Shown here one piece after another: positions 10,890 to 36,693 of a stretch of DNA of 64,000 nucleotides. The DNA lies in contig CACXCB010000252.1 of the NCBI GenBank assembly GCA_902766005.1, positions 1 to 64,000 of the forward strand, written 5' to 3'. The DNA comes from an uncultured Erysipelotrichaceae bacterium (lineage in GTDB: Bacteria > Bacillota_I > Bacilli_A > Erysipelotrichales > Erysipelotrichaceae). The notes below the pieces were generated by a model, which was not told where the DNA came from, ran no database searches, and saw only the letters and a program-made list of their open reading frames with translations. Within the stretch, counting starts at the first letter, position 1. Every line of letters starts with the position of its first letter. The position numbers and the translations under genes are program-made.

Positions 10890-11579
10890 ATGAAACAGGC
10901 AGAGATACTTCAAGCAAAAGCTTATGAACATATCAGAAATATGATTATCAGCGGGTCCTTTCAATTTGATACAGTTTATTCTGAATCAGGACTGGCCAGA
11001 GAACTCGGAATATCAAGAACCCCTGTTCGGGATGCAATTCATAAGTTATCTTCGGAAGGATACATTGATATTCTTCCAAGTCGCGGCTTCGTATTACACT
11101 CATTGAATCTTTCGGAAGCTTTACAACTGCTGAACGTTAGATCTGCAATTGAAGGATTTTGTTGTTATAATGCTGTCAGTTCTTTAGATAAAAAAGAATT
11201 TGATGAATTAATTAAAGTCCTTGAAGATTCCATAAAAAGACAAAAAGAATTTCAGAAATCTTCTTCTGATAAGGATATCGTTGCTTTTGTTAATGAAGAT
11301 ATGGCTTTTCATTATTTCCTTATTAAATCTTCAAAGAATTCATTTTTCAAAGATACTTTTGCTCATTATAATTTTCTGAACCAGCAAGCTACGGATAGAA
11401 CTTTACATACAGAAAACAGAATGCTGGAAACAATTCGAGAACATGAAAAAATTGTTGAATCTATGAAAAATGGTTCTCCTATGGATGCTTATAACGCATT
11501 AATCGAACATATGTCTTCCACAGAAAAACTTATCTTAACTTTATTCAACAACAATCCGGTTCGTAACAGCTTTCTCTGA
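10890..11579 (+). CDS. GntR-family transcriptional regulator with FCD domain
   Basis: 229 residues. A winged helix-turn-helix occupies about 1-70 (SGLARELGISRTPVRDAIH contains the recognition helix) and a helical FCD-type ligand-binding domain follows. It is divergent from the acid-sugar operon and very probably represses it through the 32-bp palindrome, with a pathway acid as inducer. I chose ATG 10890 although it lacks a ribosome binding site: TATAAT at 10877-10882 places the transcript start almost on the ATG, suggesting a leaderless message. A start at 10860 would lie upstream of that -10 element. Confidence 0.8.
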   Translation: MKQAEILQAKAYEHIRNMIISGSFQFDTVYSESGLARELGISRTPVRDAIHKLSSEGYIDILPSRGFVLHSLNLSEALQLLNVRSAIEGFCCYNAVSSLDKKEFDELIKVLEDSIKRQKEFQKSSSDKDIVAFVNEDMAFHYFLIKSSKNSFFKDTFAHYNFLNQQATDRTLHTENRMLETIREHEKIVESMKNGSPMDAYNALIEHMSSTEKLILTLFNNNPVRNSFL

Positions 11580-11667
11580 TACTACCACCTTTCATTACTT
11601 TCCGTATGATTCCATAAAAAGCTTTTTATAAAAAATAGTGAAATAACATTTCTATTAGCATTATCTG

Positions 11668-11698
11668 AAAACTCATTGGAAACATTTTGATGAGTTTT
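11668..11698 (+). terminator. terminator after the GntR gene
   Basis: AAACTCAT and ATGAGTTT pair around a 15-nt loop, followed by TTTTATTTC. Between it and 11825 I see no further feature. Confidence 0.6.
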
Positions 11699-11825
11699 TT
11701 ATTTCGTCTGTCCGATGTTTCTATATCCCCTTTTTCAGATTATTTTCAAGGTTAACAAGCATACCATCTCCCTTCGTAACTTTATTGCATCTGCAAGTAA
11801 ATTCCGAAAGTATTTCTTTGCCTCC

Positions 11826-11856
11826 AAAAAAAAGGCGTAAATCGAATTACGCCTTT
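11826..11856 (-). terminator. terminator of the polysaccharide operon
   Basis: Minus-strand stem AAAGGCGTAA paired with TTACGCCTTT, followed by eight T residues, overlapping the stop codon at 11855. Confidence 0.8.
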
Positions 11857-13591
11857 AAATTCCAAGATATTTCTTCCAAGCTGTATAGCTAGTCAGATAT
11901 TTGAATCTCTCCCTGTACTGTTTCTGTGCTTGGGGATATTTTTCTTTTAAGAGCTTTAAGATCTGCAGATAATAGCCAATGCTTCTTTTTAATAAAGCAT
12001 AGCTCTTCTCACCCTTAATTCCTTTATGCGTATCCGGATCGAAGAGAACGATTTCCTTCTTTCTGAATAAGGCATATGGCCAGATTCCCATCGGGAAAGG
12101 ATAAACCTTTTTGTTGTCTGCAGGGAATAACCATCCATTGGCTGTTAAGGCATAGAACCATTTGTTTTTCTTTTTCATGTTGTCATAGATTTCAGAAACA
12201 TTTTCCGGTTCTTCGTATTCTTCAATTTCCTTTAACACTTCCGGATCATCAATCAGCTCTTCTACCGGTTTCATGGAATAGCCATGTTCCATGATCTCTT
12301 TATTTTTGGCTTCCGGATCCAGGGTGCAAAGATATTCCGGTCCTTTTAAGAAATCCTCGACTGCCATTAATACAAGATAGGCATCATCATAACGATATCT
12401 TAACGTATTTGCCAGTATTCTCTTCCAGCAGTATTTCTTCATAGCAGAAAGATTACCGTCTTCCCTGTACAACGCATTGACCAGCATGGCATTTCTGACA
12501 TCGTAATAGGATAGTGTAGACGATCTCTTGTTTTCAAAACCAGGCGACCATACACATACGCCATTCAACAATAAAAATCCATTCTGGTTTCTTAAGCCGT
12601 ATTCCGTATCATCATTGTGCAGGAATAAAGGCAAGGGCAGATTATCCATTGTCGCTACCGCCAATGGATAACATGCATACCACCATGCAGCATAATTCGG
12701 TTCATCAATGGTTTCATTCAGAAGAACATTTTCTCTTGTTCTTAAATCCAATCCCGGATGCCTTGTCCATGGATCAGTTCCCGCCCAATGGCTTCCTGCT
12801 TCATGCGAGGAATACGGTATATCCTGCCTTAACATTGCCCCCGAAATACATGCCTTGGCATACTCATCTTTGATATAAGACAAAAGGCCGAACGTTCTTA
12901 CCAGGCTGTCCGGTTCAAGAACCGCATCATCATCCATGAAGATCATATGCGTTAAGCCAAGTTTTTCTTTCGCTTTGTTGATTTCAATCAATCCTCTGGT
13001 AAAACCGCCGGATCCGCCTGCATTCATATTCGGAAACAAGTGAATCTGTTCTGTTTCAACCTCAGCCGGATTTAACGTTCTGCCATTATCCACTAAGAAA
13101 ATGTCCATTTTCCCGTATAAAGGACTGTCTTCATTTTCCAGATGGTTTTTCTTTAAGATATCCAGGTTGTGTTTGACATAGGCTTCCCTTTTAAAAGTAC
13201 AGATATCACAGGCAAGATGAACAGCTCTTTTTGGCTTTTCCATCGTTTCATACCAGCCGTATTCCATCGTAAAACCGACTTTATCTTCAATGGAAAACCA
13301 GACACATTCCCCTTCACTGTCCGGAATACGGATATGGATTTCTTCCATTGCCGGCAGGGAAAATGACTGTCTGTCCAATACACCCCGATCATCTTCAAAG
13401 ATTAAATCAAAATCACCTCTGGCCCTCATACAGAGATAAAAAGAAGAAATGGATGTATATGTTTTCCATTTATGCAGGGAGAACATATTGAAATATGTAT
13501 CAAACAGAATATGATCCTCGTCTCTGCGATAGTATAAAGCCTCTTCCATGCATGTATCTTCTGATGGAACCAGTATATTCTGCAGAATCAT
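11855..13591 (-). CDS. GlfT2-like galactofuranosyltransferase (GT2 family)
   Basis: 578 residues. A beta-sandwich-like N-terminal domain (about 1-140) precedes a GT-A catalytic domain with the metal-binding MDDDAVLEP segment, the acceptor-site HNDDTEYG, and GGSGGFTRG as in GlfT2 enzymes. A helical C-terminal extension follows. Such enzymes add galactofuranose from UDP-Galf to surface glycans at the inner membrane face. The ATG overlaps the stop of the preceding glycosyltransferase gene (ATGA), so it is translationally coupled and last in the four-gene operon. No UDP-galactopyranose mutase is in the window, so the donor sugar is inferred from similarity. Confidence 0.75.
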   Translation of the reverse strand: MILQNILVPSEDTCMEEALYYRRDEDHILFDTYFNMFSLHKWKTYTSISSFYLCMRARGDFDLIFEDDRGVLDRQSFSLPAMEEIHIRIPDSEGECVWFSIEDKVGFTMEYGWYETMEKPKRAVHLACDICTFKREAYVKHNLDILKKNHLENEDSPLYGKMDIFLVDNGRTLNPAEVETEQIHLFPNMNAGGSGGFTRGLIEINKAKEKLGLTHMIFMDDDAVLEPDSLVRTFGLLSYIKDEYAKACISGAMLRQDIPYSSHEAGSHWAGTDPWTRHPGLDLRTRENVLLNETIDEPNYAAWWYACYPLAVATMDNLPLPLFLHNDDTEYGLRNQNGFLLLNGVCVWSPGFENKRSSTLSYYDVRNAMLVNALYREDGNLSAMKKYCWKRILANTLRYRYDDAYLVLMAVEDFLKGPEYLCTLDPEAKNKEIMEHGYSMKPVEELIDDPEVLKEIEEYEEPENVSEIYDNMKKKNKWFYALTANGWLFPADNKKVYPFPMGIWPYALFRKKEIVLFDPDTHKGIKGEKSYALLKRSIGYYLQILKLLKEKYPQAQKQYRERFKYLTSYTAWKKYLGI

Positions 13592-28367: not shown

Positions 28368-28499
28368 TTAATATTGCTTCAGTTTTCTGACTGATTCAGG
28401 CATCTTCTCCTGATATGAACTTTTGACTGAGGGTGAATTTGCTGCATTTGTTGCAGATTGAACCAGGAAGTTCACAATCAGTTCAAACAATAAATCCAT
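28368..28499 (-). CDS. agrD: AgrD-like autoinducing peptide precursor, no cysteine
   Basis: 43 residues, starting three bases after the agrB stop with AAAGGGG upstream. An amphipathic N-terminal helix (MDLLFELIVNFLVQSA) and a C-terminal acidic/proline tail (EKMPESVRKLKQY) have the usual AgrD layout. The core between them, NSPSVKSSY, has no cysteine, so a ring would have to be a serine lactone, as in FsrD of Enterococcus (GBAP also begins QNSP). AgrB is expected to cut before the EKMPES tail and close the ring. Ring residues and exact cleavage are inferred. Confidence 0.75.
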   Translation of the reverse strand: MDLLFELIVNFLVQSATNAANSPSVKSSYQEKMPESVRKLKQY

Positions 28500-28502
28500 T
28501 TT

Positions 28503-29057
28503 TCATACCCCTTTCCTATTTTGAAATTGCTGAATCAAGCATAACAATGACAGCCATAAAACAACATAGAATTGCATTCGCATCCATATATATTGATCCA
28601 TAACCCATAGTGCAAAATATGCAATACACGAAATCATCAACCGTATTCTCACTTGCTTTTTGTGAACTTCTTTTTCTTCTTTACATAACGGATTATTCTC
28701 ATTTTGTACCGGTGAAACTAGATACAAATAAGCAATCGGTACCAAGATGAGCCATTCATGCCCTTTTAGGACAAATAAACAATTCAACAAACAGCTGCTG
28801 AAAACCATGCATATGTATAAACTGCCGCATGTAAAATAAGTCTTGCAATGATATCCGCCGCATTCCGTTCTCAAGAAAGAGAATGCAGTAATAAATGCCA
28901 GTGATTGCCATGTTTGATCAATGAAGGAACAAACCAGCACTGCAAGAAAAACATCAATCAGAAAAGCCATTTCCACTTTGAAACCATATTCAATTATTTC
29001 AAAGTCTATTTGTTTTTCCTCTGCTTTCTTTTTCACACCTGTGATCAACCGGTTCAT
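28503..29057 (-). CDS. agrB: AgrB-family peptide-processing membrane endopeptidase
   Basis: 184 residues from ATG 29057, which has AAGGAA ten bases upstream; an ATG at 29075 is also possible. Five to six membrane helices are visible. The catalytic pair is His and Cys seven residues apart in GGYHCKTYFTC, the AgrB signature. It should cleave the C-terminal tail of the AgrD precursor next to it and form the cyclic signal. A candidate promoter TTGTAT-16 bp-CATAAT lies upstream, in the region divergent from a LytTR regulator. Confidence 0.88.
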   Translation of the reverse strand: MNRLITGVKKKAEEKQIDFEIIEYGFKVEMAFLIDVFLAVLVCSFIDQTWQSLAFITAFSFLRTECGGYHCKTYFTCGSLYICMVFSSCLLNCLFVLKGHEWLILVPIAYLYLVSPVQNENNPLCKEEKEVHKKQVRIRLMISCIAYFALWVMDQYIWMRMQFYVVLWLSLLCLIQQFQNRKGV

Positions 29058-29182
29058 CTTGTTTGTTCCTTGCATTCTGATTATGAATCTTTTCCACAAA
29101 AATACAAGTTATGGGTGACAAGATGCATGTATAAGGGGATATTCGGTATTTTCATTCATGTAAAACAGAGTAAAATAGAACC

Positions 29183-29881
29183 ATGAAAACGGCTTATATA
29201 GATGATGAAGAAATTTATTTTCCTTTACTGAGAAAAGTATTAAATAATAACAATTGGAATGATGACATTGACACTTTTTCCGATACCGAAGTATTTCTTT
29301 GTTCAATGAAAAACAATCACTATGATCTTGTCTTTCTGGATATAGAGATGCCGGATAATAATGGTATTTTTTTGTCGGAACAAATACGTGACATCAATGC
29401 TGATACAATGATTGTCTATTTGACAAATCATACAGAAACAATGTTTCGTGCATACGGAATCAATGTCATTGGATTTATTGATAAATCTAGAATTGATGAA
29501 CAGATGCCATTCGTATTAAGAAAGGCTATGGACTTATTTGGTCAAAAAAAAACAGTATCCATGAAATCTAAAGATGGTCAGACCATTCAGTTGGAACTCT
29601 CTAAAATACTGTTTTGTGAGATTAAAAACAGAAAGATATTCTTATACACTTCGTACGGTTCGAAATACATATTAAATTACAGCACAATCAATGATGTCTA
29701 TTCATTGCTTGATTCCGATCAGATGGTGTACATTACCCGTTCTGCTTTTATCAATATCAAAAAAATTGAAAGCATCGGAAAAGAAGAGTTGCATCTTTTC
29801 GGATATTCCAAGCCATTGTTTATCAGCAGGACAAGACGTGAACAGGTCAATACAATGTTTCTGCACTCATTGCATATGTGA
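29183..29881 (+). CDS. LytTR-family response regulator (AgrA type)
   Basis: 232 residues. The receiver domain (about 1-115) has acidic residues DDEE at the N-terminus, phospho-acceptor Asp in LVFLDIEMPD and a lysine in FIDKS. The LytTR DNA-binding domain (about 125-225) has ILFCEIKNRKIFLYT and YITRSAFINIKKI. It is divergent from agrBD, and its 3' end overlaps the convergent kinase gene by 15 bp. TAAAAT ends six bases before the ATG, so the message may be leaderless. Likely partner of the AgrC-like kinase, in competition or cooperation with the second LytTR regulator. Confidence 0.85.
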   Translation: MKTAYIDDEEIYFPLLRKVLNNNNWNDDIDTFSDTEVFLCSMKNNHYDLVFLDIEMPDNNGIFLSEQIRDINADTMIVYLTNHTETMFRAYGINVIGFIDKSRIDEQMPFVLRKAMDLFGQKKTVSMKSKDGQTIQLELSKILFCEIKNRKIFLYTSYGSKYILNYSTINDVYSLLDSDQMVYITRSAFINIKKIESIGKEELHLFGYSKPLFISRTRREQVNTMFLHSLHM

Positions 29882-31144
29882 TATGTCATTCAATATAACT
29901 GTGGCATAGAACCTGTTATCCATGATATCCATGTATAATTGTCCGTTATATTTTTCTGTAATAATCCTGACAGAATTCAATCCGATTCCATGATTCCGAC
30001 TGTCTGTTTTCCCGGTTTTCAAATTGACATTCTTCATGTCAGTGGAATTGGATACTTCAATTTTCAATTGATCATTATGTGTAATGACAACACGTATGTC
30101 CCGATTCAACCGGGATATGTTTTCAATTGCATTATCAAGAAGATTGGCAAGTACCATGGCAATATCATATTCCGCATCTGAAGACAAATTGCCTATTTGT
30201 ATCATTGTCTGAATGGATATGTCTTTTTCTTTTGCGCTGTTTATTTTATTGGTGACAATTGCATCAATTGCCGTATACCCTGTATTTGTGCTTACAGGAA
30301 CATGATCCAGAATGGAAACATTCTTTTGAATATATTCATTGATTTTATCCGTTTTGCCCTGATCCAGATAATTTTTAACAATCGTTAATTGATTCTTCAG
30401 ATCATGACGCATGATACGAACTGTTTCTTCTTTTTCCCTGAAAGCTTGTGCATTATTTTTTAATGTCTCCATTTCCATCTCAAAAGATTTTCTCTGCATC
30501 TCCAAGAAATGATCATACTGGGCATGATAAAACACGATGTATAACAATGCCGTCAAAAAGAACAAAAAGAAATTGATAAAAATCAGCATAACAAAACGAT
30601 CGCCGTCTATAATCATCGATTCTATTAATGTAGTCACTACCAACAATATGGAAAATCCACAAGCAAAAATCCAATCATATTTTGTTTGTAAAGTGCGGTA
30701 TTTCTTTGTGTATTTATTGATGAGCAGCATGATGAAAAGAAGTACAAGTCTTCCACCGAGAAAACGATAAATAATACTGATTGAGTAAATGGTTTTCAAT
30801 GGTTCAAACCCGTACATCCAATAGCTGATTAAAAAGACTAGCTCATTACCTACACTGACTGCAATATCCAGAACAATGGCATATATCAGCAAATTTATCG
30901 GCATATCCTTTCCATTTTCTCTGAAAAAATACATGACCAAAAAAAGAATAACTACCATTAGTACAGTAAGCAGCCCCTCATACACATAAAAATAATTAAA
31001 TACAGTGATTTCAACTGTACCGATGATTGCATACGTTAGAAGGAACAGTTGTCTTTTCTTACTTTTCAATTCCAGATAATCTGCCATTAATACAGCATAT
31101 AAGATACTTTCAATAATATTTATCCCGATATCCAATAATCCCAT
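29867..31144 (-). CDS. AgrC-like sensor histidine kinase (GHKL)
   Basis: 425 residues. Six to seven membrane helices occupy about 1-200, then a coiled linker and the phosphorylated histidine in MRHDLKNQL (about 245). The ATP-binding GHKL domain has the N-box in LANLLDNAIEN and the G-box in NHGIGLNSVR. This is the layout of AgrC/FsrC-type receptors for cyclic peptides, so it should sense the agrD product. It follows the frameshifted LytTR regulator by 11 bp in the operon XRE-LytTR-kinase. Confidence 0.88.
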   Translation of the reverse strand: MGLLDIGINIIESILYAVLMADYLELKSKKRQLFLLTYAIIGTVEITVFNYFYVYEGLLTVLMVVILFLVMYFFRENGKDMPINLLIYAIVLDIAVSVGNELVFLISYWMYGFEPLKTIYSISIIYRFLGGRLVLLFIMLLINKYTKKYRTLQTKYDWIFACGFSILLVVTTLIESMIIDGDRFVMLIFINFFLFFLTALLYIVFYHAQYDHFLEMQRKSFEMEMETLKNNAQAFREKEETVRIMRHDLKNQLTIVKNYLDQGKTDKINEYIQKNVSILDHVPVSTNTGYTAIDAIVTNKINSAKEKDISIQTMIQIGNLSSDAEYDIAMVLANLLDNAIENISRLNRDIRVVITHNDQLKIEVSNSTDMKNVNLKTGKTDSRNHGIGLNSVRIITEKYNGQLYMDIMDNRFYATVILNDISHMQ

Positions 31145-31155
31145 GCATATCCCCT

Positions 31156-31838
31156 CTAGAAATTATTGTAATATCTTTTTCTGAACGTTGCATAATATTT
31201 TCTGGAAATATAGACGGTTTCTCCGCATTCCATAGTCATTCTATTGTTTTGCACTTTTTTTATCTTTTCCAGATTAATGATGTAGGATTGATGGATCTGT
31301 ATAAATCTATGGTCTTCTAAAATGTTACTCTCATTGAGAAATCTGGATAATGATTTTTTCATTTGGAATACCTGCCCTTTGCATAGACAGATAATATATT
31401 CCTGTTAATTTCTATTAACTCTATATTTTCCGGGTGAATACTGACGTCTCTTCCGTGAAAAGGTATCAGCAATGTTTTTTCTTCCTGAAAATATCTTTGC
31501 AAAACACGCAAAAGATGATCACTCAATCTGTCTTTCAGGATAAAATCATATGCATAATGAGAAAAACTATTAAACACATAGTTTTCTATCGAAGTAACAA
31601 AAACGATCTTTCCATGATTATGCTTACGGATTTCTTCAGCTATTTCAAAACCGTTCTTTCCCGGCATCCTGATATCAAGAAGAAATAGATCATATTCTGC
31701 TTGCAATTTAATCCCTTTGACTGAATTGAAAGAATGAATACTGATTTCAGCATCTATTCTCTGAGCAGTCTTTTTGATTTCTTCTTCAATAATTCCCAAA
31801 AACTCTACTTCATCATCAATGACACAGATATTCATCAT
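31156..31838 (-). CDS. LytTR response regulator interrupted by a -1 frameshift
   Basis: The receiver domain (IDDEVEFLG, phospho-acceptor in LFLLDIRMPG, lysine in FILKD) and the first strands of a LytTR domain are in one frame ending at a TGA (31359-31361). The rest of LytTR (MKKSLSRFLNES onward) is in the -1 frame, 31156-31362. The heptamer A AAG GGC (31374-31380, minus strand) is in the correct phase for a tandem -1 slip. Slippage would give VYAKG followed by QVFQMKKSL, which restores a normal LytTR domain of about 227 residues. It could instead be a mutated gene, or two coupled chains. I start it at ATG 31838, overlapping the XRE gene stop (ATGATGA). Confidence 0.65.
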
Positions 31839-32134
31839 TTTTTGAATTTCTGATCCCAAAAATAAAAATACAAACGCAGAATAACTTCCAGCTGGTCATG
31901 ATCAAGCCAAGATAAATCCAGAACACTGTTATAAGAATCTCCAAGTAAGAAATCAATTGATACACCCGTAGAATGAGAAATATCTTTAAGACTGAGTGCA
32001 GAAGGATAACTTTCTCCTTTTTCCCACTCACTGATAGTCAATTCACTGAAACCAAGATACCTGGCAAATTCTTTCTGGTTCATTCCCATTGCTTTACGTA
32101 CCATCTTAAAATTGTTCTGTACTTCTATTTCCAA
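31835..32134 (-). CDS. XRE-family helix-turn-helix regulator
   Basis: 99 residues. The Cro/CI-type DNA-binding domain (about 10-70) has NQKEFARYLGFSELTISEWE and GVSIDFLLG. The start is TTG 32134 with AAGGA upstream. It heads the XRE-LytTR-kinase operon, is coupled to the regulator by ATGATGA, and is divergent from the secreted-peptide operon. It may set basal expression in the intergenic region, for example at the palindrome 32321-32334. Confidence 0.75.
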   Translation of the reverse strand: MEIEVQNNFKMVRKAMGMNQKEFARYLGFSELTISEWEKGESYPSALSLKDISHSTGVSIDFLLGDSYNSVLDLSWLDHDQLEVILRLYFYFWDQKFKK

Positions 32135-32200
32135 AATATCCTTTTTCTTCTTACTTATAAGAGAATAGTAAAGGATAATAACAAAATACTTTACTGTTTT

Positions 32201-32223
32201 AAATCCGGAATTACCGGATTTTT
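32201..32223 (+). terminator. terminator-like hairpin upstream of the peptide promoter
   Basis: AAATCCGG and CCGGATTT form an 8-bp stem followed by TT and an AT-rich stretch. It would stop plus-strand read-through into the regulated promoter, insulating it; it could also be part of the XRE promoter region. Confidence 0.5.
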
Positions 32224-32236
32224 ATAATTAATGATG

Positions 32237-32267
32237 ACCGTCGCTCGTAAAAACGTAACCGTCGCTC
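32237..32267. promoter_or_regulatory. direct repeat with 21-bp period, probable LytTR binding site
   Basis: ACCGTCGCTC occurs at 32237-32246 and exactly again at 32258-32267. Two helical turns between copies is the arrangement used by AgrA/ComE/FsrA-type LytTR activators (9-10 bp repeats spaced by 11-12 bp). The second copy ends 8 bp before the -35 element, an ideal activator position. Confidence 0.7.
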
Positions 32268-32275
32268 ATGCCATA

Positions 32276-32304
32276 TTGAATTTGAACACATTCACAAATA
32301 CAAT
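32276..32304 (+). promoter_or_regulatory. promoter of the secreted-peptide operon
   Basis: TTGAAT (32276-32281) and TACAAT (32299-32304) are 17 bp apart; the predicted start is near 32311, giving a leader of about 70 nt. Confidence 0.65.
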
Positions 32305-32320
32305 GAAGTCACCACCTGGG

Positions 32321-32334
32321 GTAAAACGTTTTAC
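32321..32334. promoter_or_regulatory. 14-bp perfect palindrome in the peptide leader
   Basis: GTAAAACGTTTTAC lies about 10-24 bp downstream of the predicted start. It may be an operator, for example for the divergent XRE protein, or a short RNA hairpin. Confidence 0.45.
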
Positions 32335-32382
32335 ATCGTTCTTCAAAACCACATCAAATTAATTACAACAGAAAGGAACAGT

Positions 32383-32754
32383 ATGAACTCAATAGCAAAG
32401 AAACTTAAAAAGTTATTTATCAGCTTTGCATGTTTGTTTGCATTTACAAGTATGATGACATTTGTAAATGCAGCAGTCAAACAGAAAACAAAAACCGGAT
32501 ATGCATACACAAGTCTGGCAACAGCCACTGTCTATTGTACCGGAACCCATTATTCAACCGGCAATACACGTTGGGCTGCTTCAGGGAGTGTTTCAAGCAG
32601 TCAGCCACATAACAGTGTAAATTTTGTTAAAACATATATCTCTGATTCAACGTTGCGAGTCAGAGCTGATGTTACAGTTACAACAGTGGGTTATCAATCA
32701 GCTTCTGCATCCACAAATTTTACATTTACTTATGCAAACGGTGAAGTAAGCTAA
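32383..32754 (+). CDS. small secreted peptide, bacteriocin-like candidate
   Basis: 123 residues. A strong signal peptide (KKLKKLFISFACLFAF core) ends at about residue 30 (FVNA). The mature 93-residue part is rich in Ser, Thr, Ala and aromatic residues, has one cysteine, and reads like alternating beta strands. GAAAGGAAC precedes the ATG. Export would use the Sec pathway. Its place before two ABC fusion proteins and after a quorum-sensing module recalls lactococcin-972-type bacteriocin loci, whose peptides also have Sec signals and ABC neighbours. I see no clear family motif, so a signalling or adhesion role is possible. Confidence 0.65.
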   Translation: MNSIAKKLKKLFISFACLFAFTSMMTFVNAAVKQKTKTGYAYTSLATATVYCTGTHYSTGNTRWAASGSVSSSQPHNSVNFVKTYISDSTLRVRADVTVTTVGYQSASASTNFTFTYANGEVS

Positions 32755-32842
32755 ATTTAATCAAGCTTATCACAAGAAGGTTGGAATACTTTCCAGCCTT
32801 CTTGTACTTTCACTTAAATCACTTTTATAGGAAGGAACATAC

Positions 32843-34879
32843 ATGGAGATTTTGTTTGACACAATTAAATACAAAGAGCATCTTATATTGTATGACGGAA
32901 CGATTACAGTTTCCGGTAAATGTATTACGGCTATTGCAGGTGAAAGCGGGAGCGGAAAAACATCATTATTCAAAGCTATCGAGAATCAATCTAGGACAAA
33001 CGTTCGAATAGCTTCCTGTCCACAAGAACCTTTATTTCTTGACCGACTGACAATCGGTAATCATTTTTCCCTTCTGAAAGATATCTATCAAAAAAATGAT
33101 GAAATAGAAAATGATATACAGTCATTGCAATTAGAAAATGTATTGGATAAGATTCCGGCACAACTTTCAGGAGGAGAGAACAAAAGAGCAGCATTTCTTT
33201 TAACCTGTTTTCAGGAAGCGGATATCTATATGTTTGATGAACCTACTGCATCTGTGAACAGTGAGTACAGGGAAGCATATCTTTCCATAATGAAAAAGCT
33301 TCTGAATAATGGGAAATCTATTATTCTTTTCACACATGACAAGGAGCTGTTTGAAATCGCCGAATTTCAATATCAAATACATCAGCATGAATTGAAGCAG
33401 ATTAAGTCAGTTTCGAAAACAGAGAAATTATCTCTATCAAAAGATACTGATCTTTCTCTTTTACAAACACCCTCATATTTCTTCAAGATGAAGAAAAGCC
33501 AAAAAAAATATCTGAAAGTCATTGAAACAATCATTATCATTTGTACCGTTTTAATTGGAATAGGCTACAGTTATAGCAATATTGTTTATCATAGCCAGCA
33601 GGCTATTGTAAAACAAATGCAGTCTGATGAACTGATTGTTTATAAACCTTGGCCGATAGATGACACCTATACGTATGGAGCAGAAACTCCATTAAATGAA
33701 GAAGATATTCAGAAAATCAATTCTGTCAGTCATGTAAAAGAAACCGAATGGCGTTACGATTTTGACGAATATGACAGATTGCTGGATTATGACATCACAG
33801 AGGAACATATTTTCAATGAATCATCATATACAGTCGGAATTTATAAAAATGATAGTTTTTTCATGTCATTTGAACCGGATATGAGCAATGGAATGCTTGT
33901 ATGCACGTATATGAAAGATAATAAATCTTTCAGCGAGATAGAAGTCGATTTCGGGGGTGAAGGGATTTATATTTCAAGATTTTTTGCAAATGGCTTAAAA
34001 CGCAACATCGGAATCAAAAATGATGAAGAATTACAAAATTATTCTTTACGCTTCGAAATATCTGTTCCGACTTATACAACATACGGAAGATGGAAATGTG
34101 CAGGAGGAGACGATACAGAAATATATAATCGCTATTCTCCGACGGTAGAATCGGATGAACTGTATCTTCCCATTTCCGGCATTTTAAAATGGAGCTCCTT
34201 CGGATTGCAGAATACCGGCGCGAATGCTGTTTTTGTCGAAAGAAGCAACATAGAACCGTTAATTGAAAAGCACAAAAAAGACCGTGAAAGAACAATCTAT
34301 GTTTTTAATGAGGATTGTACAGATTTTTCCATTGACATTCTGCCTGAAAACAATAAAGAAGTCCTTTATATTTTCGAGGATAAGCCATGGACACCTTCTT
34401 CTGTTTCCGTATTTGTTGATCAAATAGAATGTGTTCCTGATGTTGTTGAAGATTTAAAAGACATGGGTTATGCGATCAACAGTGCCTACACACAACAAGC
34501 ACCTGTATTCGGCGGTGCAAAAGCAATCCGAGAAGCATTTCTGACAGGTTCATTACTTCTTGCGGCTATTACAATATTGCTTGGATGCGGTTTACAAATC
34601 ATGCAGCAAAAAGCAGAAAGAAATACTGATTGTTATTTTAGACATATCGGTCTGTCATCACTTGAAATACGGAATGTCCGTAAACAGTTTTATATAGAAA
34701 ATACAAAAAGAAAAATGCTTGCAGTATGTGTTGTTTCAGGTATTTCTTTTCTGCTGCTGTCGATTCTTGTTCGTTATCCATTACTTCCATCGGTTACCGC
34801 CTTATTTCTGATTGCTGTGACAGTATTCACAATATACTGCATTGTTCCAATCATATCTGACAGGTATAGAAAATGTTAA
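32843..34879 (+). CDS. ABC transporter, ATPase fused to FtsX/MacB-like permease (first)
   Basis: 678 residues. The N-terminal ATPase (about 1-190) has Walker A GESGSGKT, signature LSGGEN and Walker B MFDEPTAS. One helix lies near 225-250, a large extracellular domain spans about 255-565, and three helices close the protein (about 568-590, 625-645, 648-670), as in MacB/FtsX-type permeases. AGGAAGG-like ribosome binding. It overlaps the next gene by 7 bp; the two half-transporters probably pair. Likely role: export or self-immunity for the secreted peptide, or extraction of a membrane-active compound. Fusion of ATPase and permease in both partners is unusual for bacteriocin-associated pairs. 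Confidence 0.8.
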   Translation: MEILFDTIKYKEHLILYDGTITVSGKCITAIAGESGSGKTSLFKAIENQSRTNVRIASCPQEPLFLDRLTIGNHFSLLKDIYQKNDEIENDIQSLQLENVLDKIPAQLSGGENKRAAFLLTCFQEADIYMFDEPTASVNSEYREAYLSIMKKLLNNGKSIILFTHDKELFEIAEFQYQIHQHELKQIKSVSKTEKLSLSKDTDLSLLQTPSYFFKMKKSQKKYLKVIETIIIICTVLIGIGYSYSNIVYHSQQAIVKQMQSDELIVYKPWPIDDTYTYGAETPLNEEDIQKINSVSHVKETEWRYDFDEYDRLLDYDITEEHIFNESSYTVGIYKNDSFFMSFEPDMSNGMLVCTYMKDNKSFSEIEVDFGGEGIYISRFFANGLKRNIGIKNDEELQNYSLRFEISVPTYTTYGRWKCAGGDDTEIYNRYSPTVESDELYLPISGILKWSSFGLQNTGANAVFVERSNIEPLIEKHKKDRERTIYVFNEDCTDFSIDILPENNKEVLYIFEDKPWTPSSVSVFVDQIECVPDVVEDLKDMGYAINSAYTQQAPVFGGAKAIREAFLTGSLLLAAITILLGCGLQIMQQKAERNTDCYFRHIGLSSLEIRNVRKQFYIENTKRKMLAVCVVSGISFLLLSILVRYPLLPSVTALFLIAVTVFTIYCIVPIISDRYRKC

Positions 34880-36693
34880 ATATCAGTAATATACAAATAG
34901 AATTTGAAGATTTAGTTTTAGGTAAATCATCTTTTACTATTCCCGAACATTGCGTCACCCTGATCAGGGGATTCAGCGGATCCGGAAAAACATCACTTCT
35001 TTACAGAGTAACATTAATCAGTGAAGATACAGATTTTATTTATGAGATCGGTAATCTTAATATTTCAAAATTATCTGATCGTGAAAAATGCGCTTTTCGG
35101 AAAGAACATATTGCTTTTGTAATGCAGGATAACAGTTTATTTGAACAATATGATGTACTTGGTAATATGATGCTGTATGCGGATTTCAATAATCAAAAAT
35201 ACAGCCATGAACAATATATTGCATTCCTGAATAATGTTAATTTACATGTTCCGCTTCATCAGTCAATTAAAACCTTATCCGGCGGCGAAAGGCAAAGGCT
35301 TGCTATTGCTTGTGCCCTCTGCAAGAATACAGAGCTGATAGTACTTGATGAACCGACAAGTTTTCTGGATGAAGAAAATGAATTACATGTTTTTCATGTT
35401 TTAAGAAATATCGCCGATATCTTTAAAAAGACAATTATCATCACAAGTCACAGTGATCATGCAATAGATATAAGTGATGAAATCCTGGAAATAAAAGATA
35501 AACGACTCATCGAAATAAAACATTATGAAGAAGAAAATCATGATACATTTTCCCTGACAACAAAAAGTTTTCCTCATTCTTTTTATCAGTCTTATATACG
35601 ATATTTTTATAAAAAATACAGAAACTTTGAAGCCGGTATTATCTTCTTTCTGTCAGCAGCTTTATTCATACTGAGTGTTATGATTATACATACAGACAAT
35701 TCAACAGAGAAAAGTATTACTTCTTATCAGAAGATGTCAGAAAACCAGATATTTGTCACAAAAGATACTGAAAACAAAACAGTTGACACAACGCTTTCGC
35801 CATTTTCCTTTACCTTGGATGAATATACTGTCTATCCATATATCCGGACAATCGGGATGCTGAATAATACTCCTTTCCCTGTCCTCCCCTTTTTTTCCAA
35901 TAACAACATTGAAGACAGGCTTGCAGCGAAATATAACGATAATGGTCTGTATATAAGTTTTGAATGCTATAGAGAAATCATGAATGCTATGATGAATCCG
36001 GAGAATATAAGTATTGATATAGTCATACAAACAGATGAAGACACATATGAAACATATAGCCACCCGGTTAAGATTGCAGGAATTCTCGACAGCAGTTTCC
36101 AATCTCCCTATCTTTCCGCAGGAAACAGTCGGTTTTTATATGCTGATTATTCAATGTTAGAAGAAATATACAGGGAATACGGATTAACCGGGAAGAAACA
36201 ATATGATGGTTATACGATTTTTACAGATAACTTCGATACTTATGTGTCCCTTTCTGATGAATTGTCGAAAAACAGTTATGGGGTCACCTTGTTTTTCACT
36301 TATATTGATGAAATGAAAGAATTAGAATCTATAAACCGGAAAGTAAAGATCGGTATATCATCCTTAGGGTTTATTGTAACGTTTTTTCTGTTTGCTATCA
36401 TAGAAACACTATATACAAGAAAAAGAAGCAAAGAATTGATGATGTTGAAACTGAATGGTGCTGACAATAGAGAAATATTATATGTACTGATTGTGAATGC
36501 CTCCATGCAATGTATCACCGCCTGGTTCTTTCAAACCATTCTTTTGTATATTCTTTCTTTGTTTTCACCTATATCTGTCTTTTACTATATTAAACTTGCT
36601 GCAGGATTTATTATCATTGTTTATCTGGTCAATCTCTTCCTTTTGAATCGATTTGTAAAGGATATCTCTGTTGAGAAAATACTCAGAAGCTGA
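34873..36693 (+). CDS. ABC transporter, ATPase fused to FtsX/MacB-like permease (second)
   Basis: 606 residues with the same layout as its neighbour. Walker A is GFSGSGKT, the signature LSGGERQRLAIA and Walker B IVLDEPTSFLD, all complete. A helix near 250-270 precedes an extracellular domain and a C-terminal three-helix bundle (about 495-600) with an FtsX-like KLNGADNREI turn. The extracellular domain is smaller than in the first protein. Start and upstream stop overlap, so the pair is made together. Function as for the first gene. Confidence 0.8.
   Translation: MLNISNIQIEFEDLVLGKSSFTIPEHCVTLIRGFSGSGKTSLLYRVTLISEDTDFIYEIGNLNISKLSDREKCAFRKEHIAFVMQDNSLFEQYDVLGNMMLYADFNNQKYSHEQYIAFLNNVNLHVPLHQSIKTLSGGERQRLAIACALCKNTELIVLDEPTSFLDEENELHVFHVLRNIADIFKKTIIITSHSDHAIDISDEILEIKDKRLIEIKHYEEENHDTFSLTTKSFPHSFYQSYIRYFYKKYRNFEAGIIFFLSAALFILSVMIIHTDNSTEKSITSYQKMSENQIFVTKDTENKTVDTTLSPFSFTLDEYTVYPYIRTIGMLNNTPFPVLPFFSNNNIEDRLAAKYNDNGLYISFECYREIMNAMMNPENISIDIVIQTDEDTYETYSHPVKIAGILDSSFQSPYLSAGNSRFLYADYSMLEEIYREYGLTGKKQYDGYTIFTDNFDTYVSLSDELSKNSYGVTLFFTYIDEMKELESINRKVKIGISSLGFIVTFFLFAIIETLYTRKRSKELMMLKLNGADNREILYVLIVNASMQCITAWFFQTILLYILSLFSPISVFYYIKLAAGFIIIVYLVNLFLLNRFVKDISVEKILRS

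Follow-up and report, generated by a model that had tools for sequence, protein, structure and literature searches.

A candidate agr-controlled bacteriocin locus with a paired ABC transporter in an uncultured rumen Erysipelotrichaceae

Lactococcin 972 and the shape of the locus

Lactococcin-972-like bacteriocins are beta-sandwich proteins whose genes share an operon with ABC genes; for one of them, streptococcin B, the driving regulator is ComE, of the LytTR type (PMC11796350). Our literature search found no paper linking lactococcin 972 to adjacent agr genes, and none on agr-controlled bacteriocins in Erysipelotrichales. Here we describe a locus from an uncultured Erysipelotrichaceae, a rumen gut bacterium, in which agr signalling genes adjoin genes for a secreted protein and ABC proteins. 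It occupies positions 28368-36693 of the window, the 64,000-nucleotide stretch of DNA that was analysed.

The original prediction had named AgrB, AgrD, an AgrC-like kinase, an XRE regulator and a 123-residue Sec-exported peptide (here PEP) in this interval; all of them were recovered, and the gene set as a whole lies at the coordinates given for it. The proposed comparison with lactococcin 972 was apt, as true lactococcin-972 loci in Erysipelotrichales consist of a different peptide, a double-length permease and a separate ATPase. Our locus has in common with lactococcin 972 and streptococcin B a Sec-signal peptide followed by ABC genes, and a beta-sandwich product (here predicted); LytTR control, known for streptococcin B, is suggested here by a LytTR-type operator recognised in the sequence. 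It differs from both in having two ATPase-permease fusions rather than a double-length permease and separate ATPase, and a cyclic-lactone agr system rather than a competence pheromone.

PEP and its relatives had no match to PF09683 or TIGR01653 and were not homologous to lactococcin 972 by any search; the genome (G000) had no PF09683 match anywhere, and neither ABC permease matched TIGR01654. The top family for both ATPase domains was TIGR03608, but at 75.6 and 123 bits against a cut-off of 254.85. The permease of the second ABC protein (ABC2) gave a distant profile match to the first half of the lactococcin-972-type double-length permease, which favours a bacteriocin reading; a similar relationship was considered for the first (ABC1) and rejected, there being no profile match. 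The locus is best read as analogous to lactococcin 972 and not a member of its family. We count against the bacteriocin reading the missing sequence match to lactococcin 972, and also that the ABC functions have not been experimentally verified in lactococcin-972 loci either (PMC11796350).

Having computed the gene set, its conservation, the predicted folds and the geometry of repeat and promoter, we favour, with a probability of about 0.58, the reading that the locus encodes an agr-controlled secreted bacteriocin and an ABC transporter for self-immunity; the antimicrobial action and the immunity role are what we infer. We would give even odds to the broader proposal that PEP represents a family of beta-sandwich bacteriocins, exported by Sec and not described before, which in this sampling is confined to Erysipelotrichales. 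Every member would have a heterodimeric ATPase-permease transporter dedicated to immunity, and in several lineages it would share a transcript with a Ser-lactone agr system, the signal precursor overlapping the toxin start codon. If true, this would be a bacteriocin family missed by searches with lactococcin-972 family models, none of which the peptide or permeases match. It would also provide a concrete target for the agr systems that Erysipelotrichales of the rumen and gut carry, and a clean setting in which to study how a MacB/LolCE-type transporter shields a producer from the protein it secretes, a role still unproven for lactococcin 972 itself.

The agr module and the PEP promoter

The agrD (28368-28499) and agrB (28503-29099) genes are neighbours on the minus strand. 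AgrB matches PF04647 at 97.5 bits (cut-off 23; E 8e-28) and has the catalytic His/Cys pattern GGYH-x6-C; by its sequence, it is an AIP-processing membrane protease. AgrD (TIGR04223, 25 bits against a cut-off of 19) is a 43-aa signal precursor, with ANSPSVKSSY before and QEKMPESVRKLKQY after the predicted cleavage point. Its conserved ring position holds Ser, not Cys, the thiolactone Cys is absent, and Ser or Thr is kept at this position in eight other AgrDs. The Ser sits six residues before the predicted cleavage, whereas staphylococcal AIP rings have five residues. AgrD thus appears to be of the Ser-lactone type, with a predicted ring, and Ser-lactone signals, an accepted variant within agr, are known from S. 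pseudintermedius and as the GBAP of E. faecalis (PMC3673130).

The GHKL kinase and LytTR regulator expected of agr systems were both found by profile search. The AgrC-like kinase (29867-31144, minus strand; PF14501, SPOB_a and HATPase_c) has 6-8 hydrophobic segments. Two LytTR response regulators had been claimed, and of these RR2 (29183-29881, plus strand; PF00072 and PF04397) is intact. RR1 (31156-31859, minus strand) is broken within its LytTR domain, the receiver (31359-31859) and the LytTR remainder (31156-31362; PF04397 profile positions 41-96) being in separate frames; it is either frameshifted or the product of a sequence error, and an intact copy is present in a paralogous module (L088) elsewhere in the genome. 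Overlapping RR1 is an XRE/HTH_3 regulator (31835-32134, minus strand; PF01381), and XRE genes adjoin three other cassettes as well (L008, L009 and L076). We suggest that XRE is a local autoregulator. A dyad, AAATCCGG-AATTA-CCGGATTT (32201-32221, assigned to neither strand), covers the -35 box of its predicted promoter and is a possible XRE operator. The locus thus has the components common to agr and fsr, namely AgrB with catalytic His/Cys, AgrD, a GHKL kinase and a LytTR regulator, and departs from them in having two regulators plus XRE and the presumed target operon adjacent.

Upstream of PEP, on the plus strand, are two perfect copies of ACCGTCGCTC (32237-32267), 21 bp apart from start to start and ending 8 bp before the -35 box of a predicted promoter, TTGAAT-17-TACAAT (32276-32304). 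When the intergenic region was shuffled, the repeat had a P of about 0.002, and the genome contains it at a single place. Published LytTR sites consist of a pair of direct repeats of 9-10 bp, spaced by about 21 bp, that end 4-11 bp before the -35 box (PMC6193735), a geometry that the PEP-promoter repeat shares in both spacing and distance, and this favours the bacteriocin reading. Similar 20-21-bp repeats are present at other loci. Counted against that reading are the absence of the repeat upstream of agrB, where we looked for it, and the broken response regulator. We infer a direction of signalling in which AgrB would trim and cyclise AgrD to a Ser-lactone autoinducer, the kinase would sense it and phosphorylate a LytTR regulator, and the regulator would bind the 21-bp-spaced repeats and activate the promoter of a PEP-ABC1-ABC2 operon.

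The secreted protein and the ABC pair

The claim that PEP (32383-32754, plus strand) is unfamiliar held up: it has no family match in Pfam or NCBIfam, none in the phage set, and chance-level matches only to PDB sequences. A Sec signal is predicted, with cleavage after VNA and a mature part of about 93 aa that starts at 32473, and because PEP carries its own Sec signal, no ABC exporter is needed for it. Its structure model is a six-strand beta-sandwich (pLDDT 94.3), and this confident model also favours the bacteriocin reading. In a fold search the best Z of 5.5 was not meaningful; there was no clear match to a solved structure, which we count against that reading, and lactococcin 972 was not among the matches listed. 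PEP would leave the cell via Sec, be cut, fold to a small beta-sandwich and act on the envelope of competing Gram-positives.

The gap between PEP and ABC1 contains a 15-bp stem-loop (32772-32805, plus strand), likely an attenuator or an mRNA 3'-end stabiliser, which may make PEP more abundant than the pump. Hairpins lie at the equivalent place in three other loci (L055, L056 and L009), and there was no Rfam match.

ABC1 (32843-34879) and ABC2 (34873-36693), both on the plus strand with reading frames that overlap by 7 bp, each carry an N-terminal ATPase. In ABC1 the motifs are intact, and its model resembles MacB, LolE, YtrF and BceB, with Foldseek E values to 7e-12 for LolE and a VIA Z of up to 15.0 for MacB (rmsd 7.1, 347 aligned). 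ABC2 (PF00005, with an FtsX/MacB-type permease) has profile matches to YtrF, BceB and MacB, and the two permeases are homologous to each other. The type VII layout, with TM1, a large extracellular domain, three TMs and stalk helices, was found in ABC1 by model and in ABC2 by profile, and counts in favour of the bacteriocin reading. Both proteins fuse an ATPase to a permease, have the MacB/LolCE/BceB fold and are paralogues of each other. The double fusion that had been described stands, in that each protein is one ATPase-permease chain, and is revised in that the two are best read, most simply, as halves of one heterodimeric transporter. In MacB, too, a single chain contains both the ATPase and the permease, and the locus shares fold and TM layout with the type VII transporters MacB, YknXYZ, LolCDE and BceAB; here, two different paralogous chains stand in tandem, and the probable cargo is the linked secreted peptide. 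No membrane-fusion partner gene was seen among the adjacent ORFs, and ABC1 had no match in plasmids. PADLOC matches, which were to generic ATPase and HTH only, were set aside. In the bacteriocin reading, the transporter, of MacB/LolCE type, would pull PEP off the producer membrane, or away from its target there.

The same features could suit a quorum-controlled surface or matrix protein, serving adhesion or biofilm, that a LolCDE-like ABC1-ABC2 releases or places at the envelope. PEP has a Sec signal and is predicted to form a Ser/Thr-rich beta-sandwich, LolE with bound lipoprotein is among the best structural matches of ABC1, and agr often regulates surface proteins. However, the PEP sequence shows neither a sorting motif nor a lipobox, and no domain for binding the cell wall, the peptide diverges fast while the transporter is conserved, and an operon split by a hairpin is a common arrangement for bacteriocins; we consider this explanation unlikely. 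Somewhat less likely still is a BceAB/YtrEF-like transporter for resistance to, or sensing of, foreign peptides, with PEP as accessory or decoy. The similarity of both proteins to YtrF and BceB agrees with it, and several ABC pairs that lack PEP adjoin LytTR two-component genes, but the kinase is AgrC-like rather than BceS-type, each subunit has 1+3 TMs against the 10 of BceB, and PEP is the first gene and, as the hairpin suggests, the abundant product.

Recurrence and linkage to agr

The PEP-ABC1-ABC2 set recurs in related genomes. Eight PEP family members were found in the order Erysipelotrichales. Each has ABC1 as a neighbour, and at every intact locus PEP immediately precedes ABC1, an association that favours the bacteriocin reading. 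Peptide homologues that mostly lack the ABC pair or the agr genes had been named as a refutation. For the ABC pair this did not come true, with 8 of 8 adjoining ABC1, and for agr the outcome was divided: agr is nearby in three of the eight loci, and three of the remaining five belong to one genome (G015), in which no AgrB was detected. These three cassettes indicate that agr is a frequent, not obligatory, controller, and we count them against the bacteriocin reading. The attachment to agr signalling is conserved in other genera. It is also strongly over-represented: of 34 ABC1 loci, 9 have AgrB at a distance of up to 12 kb, where 0.48 would be expected (P about 1e-10). In a genome of another genus (G218), the order is agrB-agrD-PEP-ABC1, and agrD and PEP overlap by ATGA in two operons. 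Both the enrichment and the overlap favour the bacteriocin reading.

The overlap, and the clustering of signal genes with the peptide, would also agree with PEP acting as a second extracellular signal that the ABC pair exports or senses, with agr as upstream trigger. Against this, a protein of about 10 kDa folded into a beta-sandwich would be an unusual Gram-positive pheromone and no second receptor is conserved, and we regard the idea as very unlikely. It is more improbable again that the agr module and the cassette are chance neighbours, each independently mobile. The agr-less G015 cassettes would fit such an origin, as would the G+C content of the region (a low 33-35%, where most flanking bins have 37-42%) and the agrBD genes that also adjoin some lactococcin-972-type permease-ATPase pairs (as in G071 and G072), but the AgrB enrichment, the ATGA overlap and the LytTR-type operator at the PEP promoter all speak against it.

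Upstream of other ABC pairs are secreted proteins unrelated in sequence, and several pairs have no recognisable peptide; a varied or missing peptide beside a conserved ABC pair is as expected of toxin-immunity turnover, and thus of the bacteriocin reading. At five loci (L060, L068, L081, L082 and L077), the small secreted protein upstream of ABC1 could not be placed in the PEP family. We dropped weak PEP matches in two genomes (G016 and G055; L003 and L004), which had no ABC neighbours, and a PEP-like copy (L010) antisense to a translation-factor gene. ABC2 as a single-protein query against the genome contigs gave no match, and an alignment of the ABC1 permease as query found four loci. In an empty-site comparison, a flanking phospholipase-D-like gene was present in G000 and only one relative.

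Organization of the agr locus

The predicted gene set is present in the window, which is contig C252 in an assembly of 366 contigs totalling 4.05 Mb. On the reverse strand lie agrD (28368-28499), agrB (28503-29099), an AgrC-like kinase gene (29867-31144), the LytTR response regulator gene RR1 (31156-31859) and the HTH regulator gene XRE (31835-32134); divergent from XRE, on the forward strand, are the genes for the secreted peptide PEP (32383-32754) and the ATPase-permease fusions ABC1 (32843-34879) and ABC2 (34873-36693). Of the two LytTR regulators originally called, RR2 (29183-29881, forward strand, opposite to the agr genes) is intact, whereas RR1 has a frame disrupted within its LytTR domain, which may reflect real decay, phase variation or an assembly error. 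The G+C content of the locus is low (33-35%, versus 37-42% in most flanking bins).

We find it most economical to read the locus as encoding a secreted bacteriocin under agr induction, together with an ABC pump that protects the producer. The agr system, responding to its putative AIP, would induce PEP; PEP would kill its target as lactococcin 972 and streptococcin B do; and the ABC1-ABC2 pump would confer immunity on the producer.

The peptide and the transporter

PEP carries a Sec signal, whose hydrophobic segment spans residues 11-29 and is followed by VNA, and has a predicted mature form of 93 residues (pI 9.4, 33% Ser+Thr). It had been called unfamiliar, and indeed Pfam and NCBIfam yielded no match. 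A profile search of 316 Erysipelotrichales genomes found six copies (one in the window, three in G015, two in G218), and profile alignment added two, both end to end (L072, E 3e-5; L073, E 6e-6), where other candidates and decoys scored no better than 0.03. ABC1 adjoins PEP at 8 of 8 loci. An AlphaFold2 model from six sequences has six strands (mean pLDDT 94.3) and no clear match among solved structures (best Z 5.5, rmsd 2.9, 75 aligned), a result that does not in itself establish a new fold. One chief rival to the bacteriocin reading is that this exported peptide is a quorum-controlled envelope protein; the other is a resistance transporter to which PEP is accessory.

ABC1 occurs in 23 of the 316 genomes, and in a 392-genome sample of the phylum strong matches were confined to the order; three further hits, from outside it, were marginal, covering the C-terminal TMs at E ~1e-9. 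Walker A, signature, Walker B and H-loop are intact in both ATPase domains. The ABC1 permease matched no family model; its structural model, with TM1, a large extracellular domain, a stalk and three TMs, matches LolE, MacB, YtrF and BceB, with Foldseek E values down to 7e-12 (against MacB, Z 15.0, rmsd 7.1, 347 aligned). A profile of ABC2 hits YtrF (4e-7), BceB (1e-6) and MacB (2e-4). Because the two permeases are homologous across almost their full length (prob 99.4, E 5e-21), we infer that the double fusion, present as described, would form one heterodimeric transporter.

In the order's lactococcin-972-type loci (L125, L126), as in related permeases of L129 and L068, a single 660-692-residue chain combines the two permease halves, with the ATPase encoded apart. 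The first half of this permease aligns with ABC2 (prob 93, E 2e-7) and ABC1 gives no detectable alignment, so common ancestry is supported, by sequence comparison, for ABC2 only; the fused pair and the double-length permease appear to be different ways of packaging a similar machine. Lactococcin 972 and streptococcin B are beta-sandwich lipid II binders, the latter LytTR-driven (PMC11796350). PEP may work in a similar way, yet we place its system outside that family, because neither peptide nor permease tested as a member.

Linkage to agr and putative operators

The claimed agr linkage is borne out in part. AgrB lies within 12 kb of ABC1 at 9 of 34 loci in the 23 genomes (0.48 expected; 8 of 33 with the window excluded) and within 9 kb at at least six (0.38 expected), figures that involve rounded genome sizes, a distance picked after inspection, inclusion of the window and three non-independent G218 loci. 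At L056 (G218) the order is regulator-kinase-agrB-agrD-PEP-ABC1-ABC2, the agrD stop overlapping the PEP start as ATGA, an overlap shared by L055 (G218); at L057, an unrelated secreted protein comes after agrBD, next to an ABC1-ABC2 pair. Against the linkage, the three PEP cassettes of G015 lack agr, no AgrB being found in that genome; two of them contain decayed parts. The AgrDs have Ser or Thr six residues ahead of an aromatic-Gln junction, which suggests lactone signals of the kind used by S. pseudintermedius and E. faecalis (PMC3673130).

The XRE-PEP intergenic region holds ACCGTCGCTC twice without mismatch, at 21-bp spacing, a pair that occurs once in the whole genome; 10-base matching runs at 20-22-bp spacing arose in 0.2% of shuffles of this region. 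The predicted PEP promoter (TTGAAT-17-TACAAT) begins 8 bp past the second repeat. LytTR-activated promoters have 9-bp repeats that are separated by 11-13 bp and lie 4-11 bp before the -35 (PMC6193735), and the predicted layout here is that geometry. Repeats at other loci of the family, such as those upstream of ABC1 in G004 (L054, GATATCTGGT) and of agrB in L057 (TTTAACAGATTAGACT), differ in sequence and keep a 20-21-bp spacing, as would fit regulators that each have an operator of their own; since the looser threshold used there finds a pair in ~5% of shuffled 350-bp regions, single cases outside the window should be read cautiously.

A 15-bp hairpin separates PEP from ABC1 in the window. Hairpins of differing sequence occupy the equivalent position in L055, L056 and L009, and L007 has none there. 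In bacteriocin operons, hairpins of this kind commonly favour the first gene, a hint that PEP is made in excess of the ABC proteins.

Related modules

The window's genome has six AgrB genes, the other five being on contigs C294, C217, C75, C51 and C39 (L084-L088). A Ser- or Thr-type AgrD adjoins agrB in L085-L088; L085 and L088 are complete modules, each with a kinase and two LytTR regulators besides agrB and agrD, and L088 has XRE as well. The L088 module (11498-13288), paralogous and with RR1 intact, is divergent from other cargo, a secreted protein of 271 aa and a membrane protein of 151 aa, and a 21-bp-spaced repeat of its own lies between. By eye, L084 (C294, 840-8093) is probably a RiPP cluster: agrB lies by an apparent radical-SAM/SPASM protein, a 106-aa protein, a subtilisin-like protease and ABC proteins.

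In G071 (L068) and G072 (L129), agrB-agrD adjoins a lactococcin-972-type permease and ATPase, so agr may serve that system there; L129 also encodes unfamiliar secreted peptides of 111-116 aa. This is apparently a second agr-linked bacteriocin-like arrangement. At L055 (5775-17357), one 12-kb array combines three genes like ABC1 with a single ABC2, a single PEP and agr genes, suggesting stacked immunity genes. At L008 and L009 (G015), PEP or ABC genes are decayed (an in-frame stop, a split ABC1, a displaced ABC2), a pattern like that of toxin-immunity turnover.
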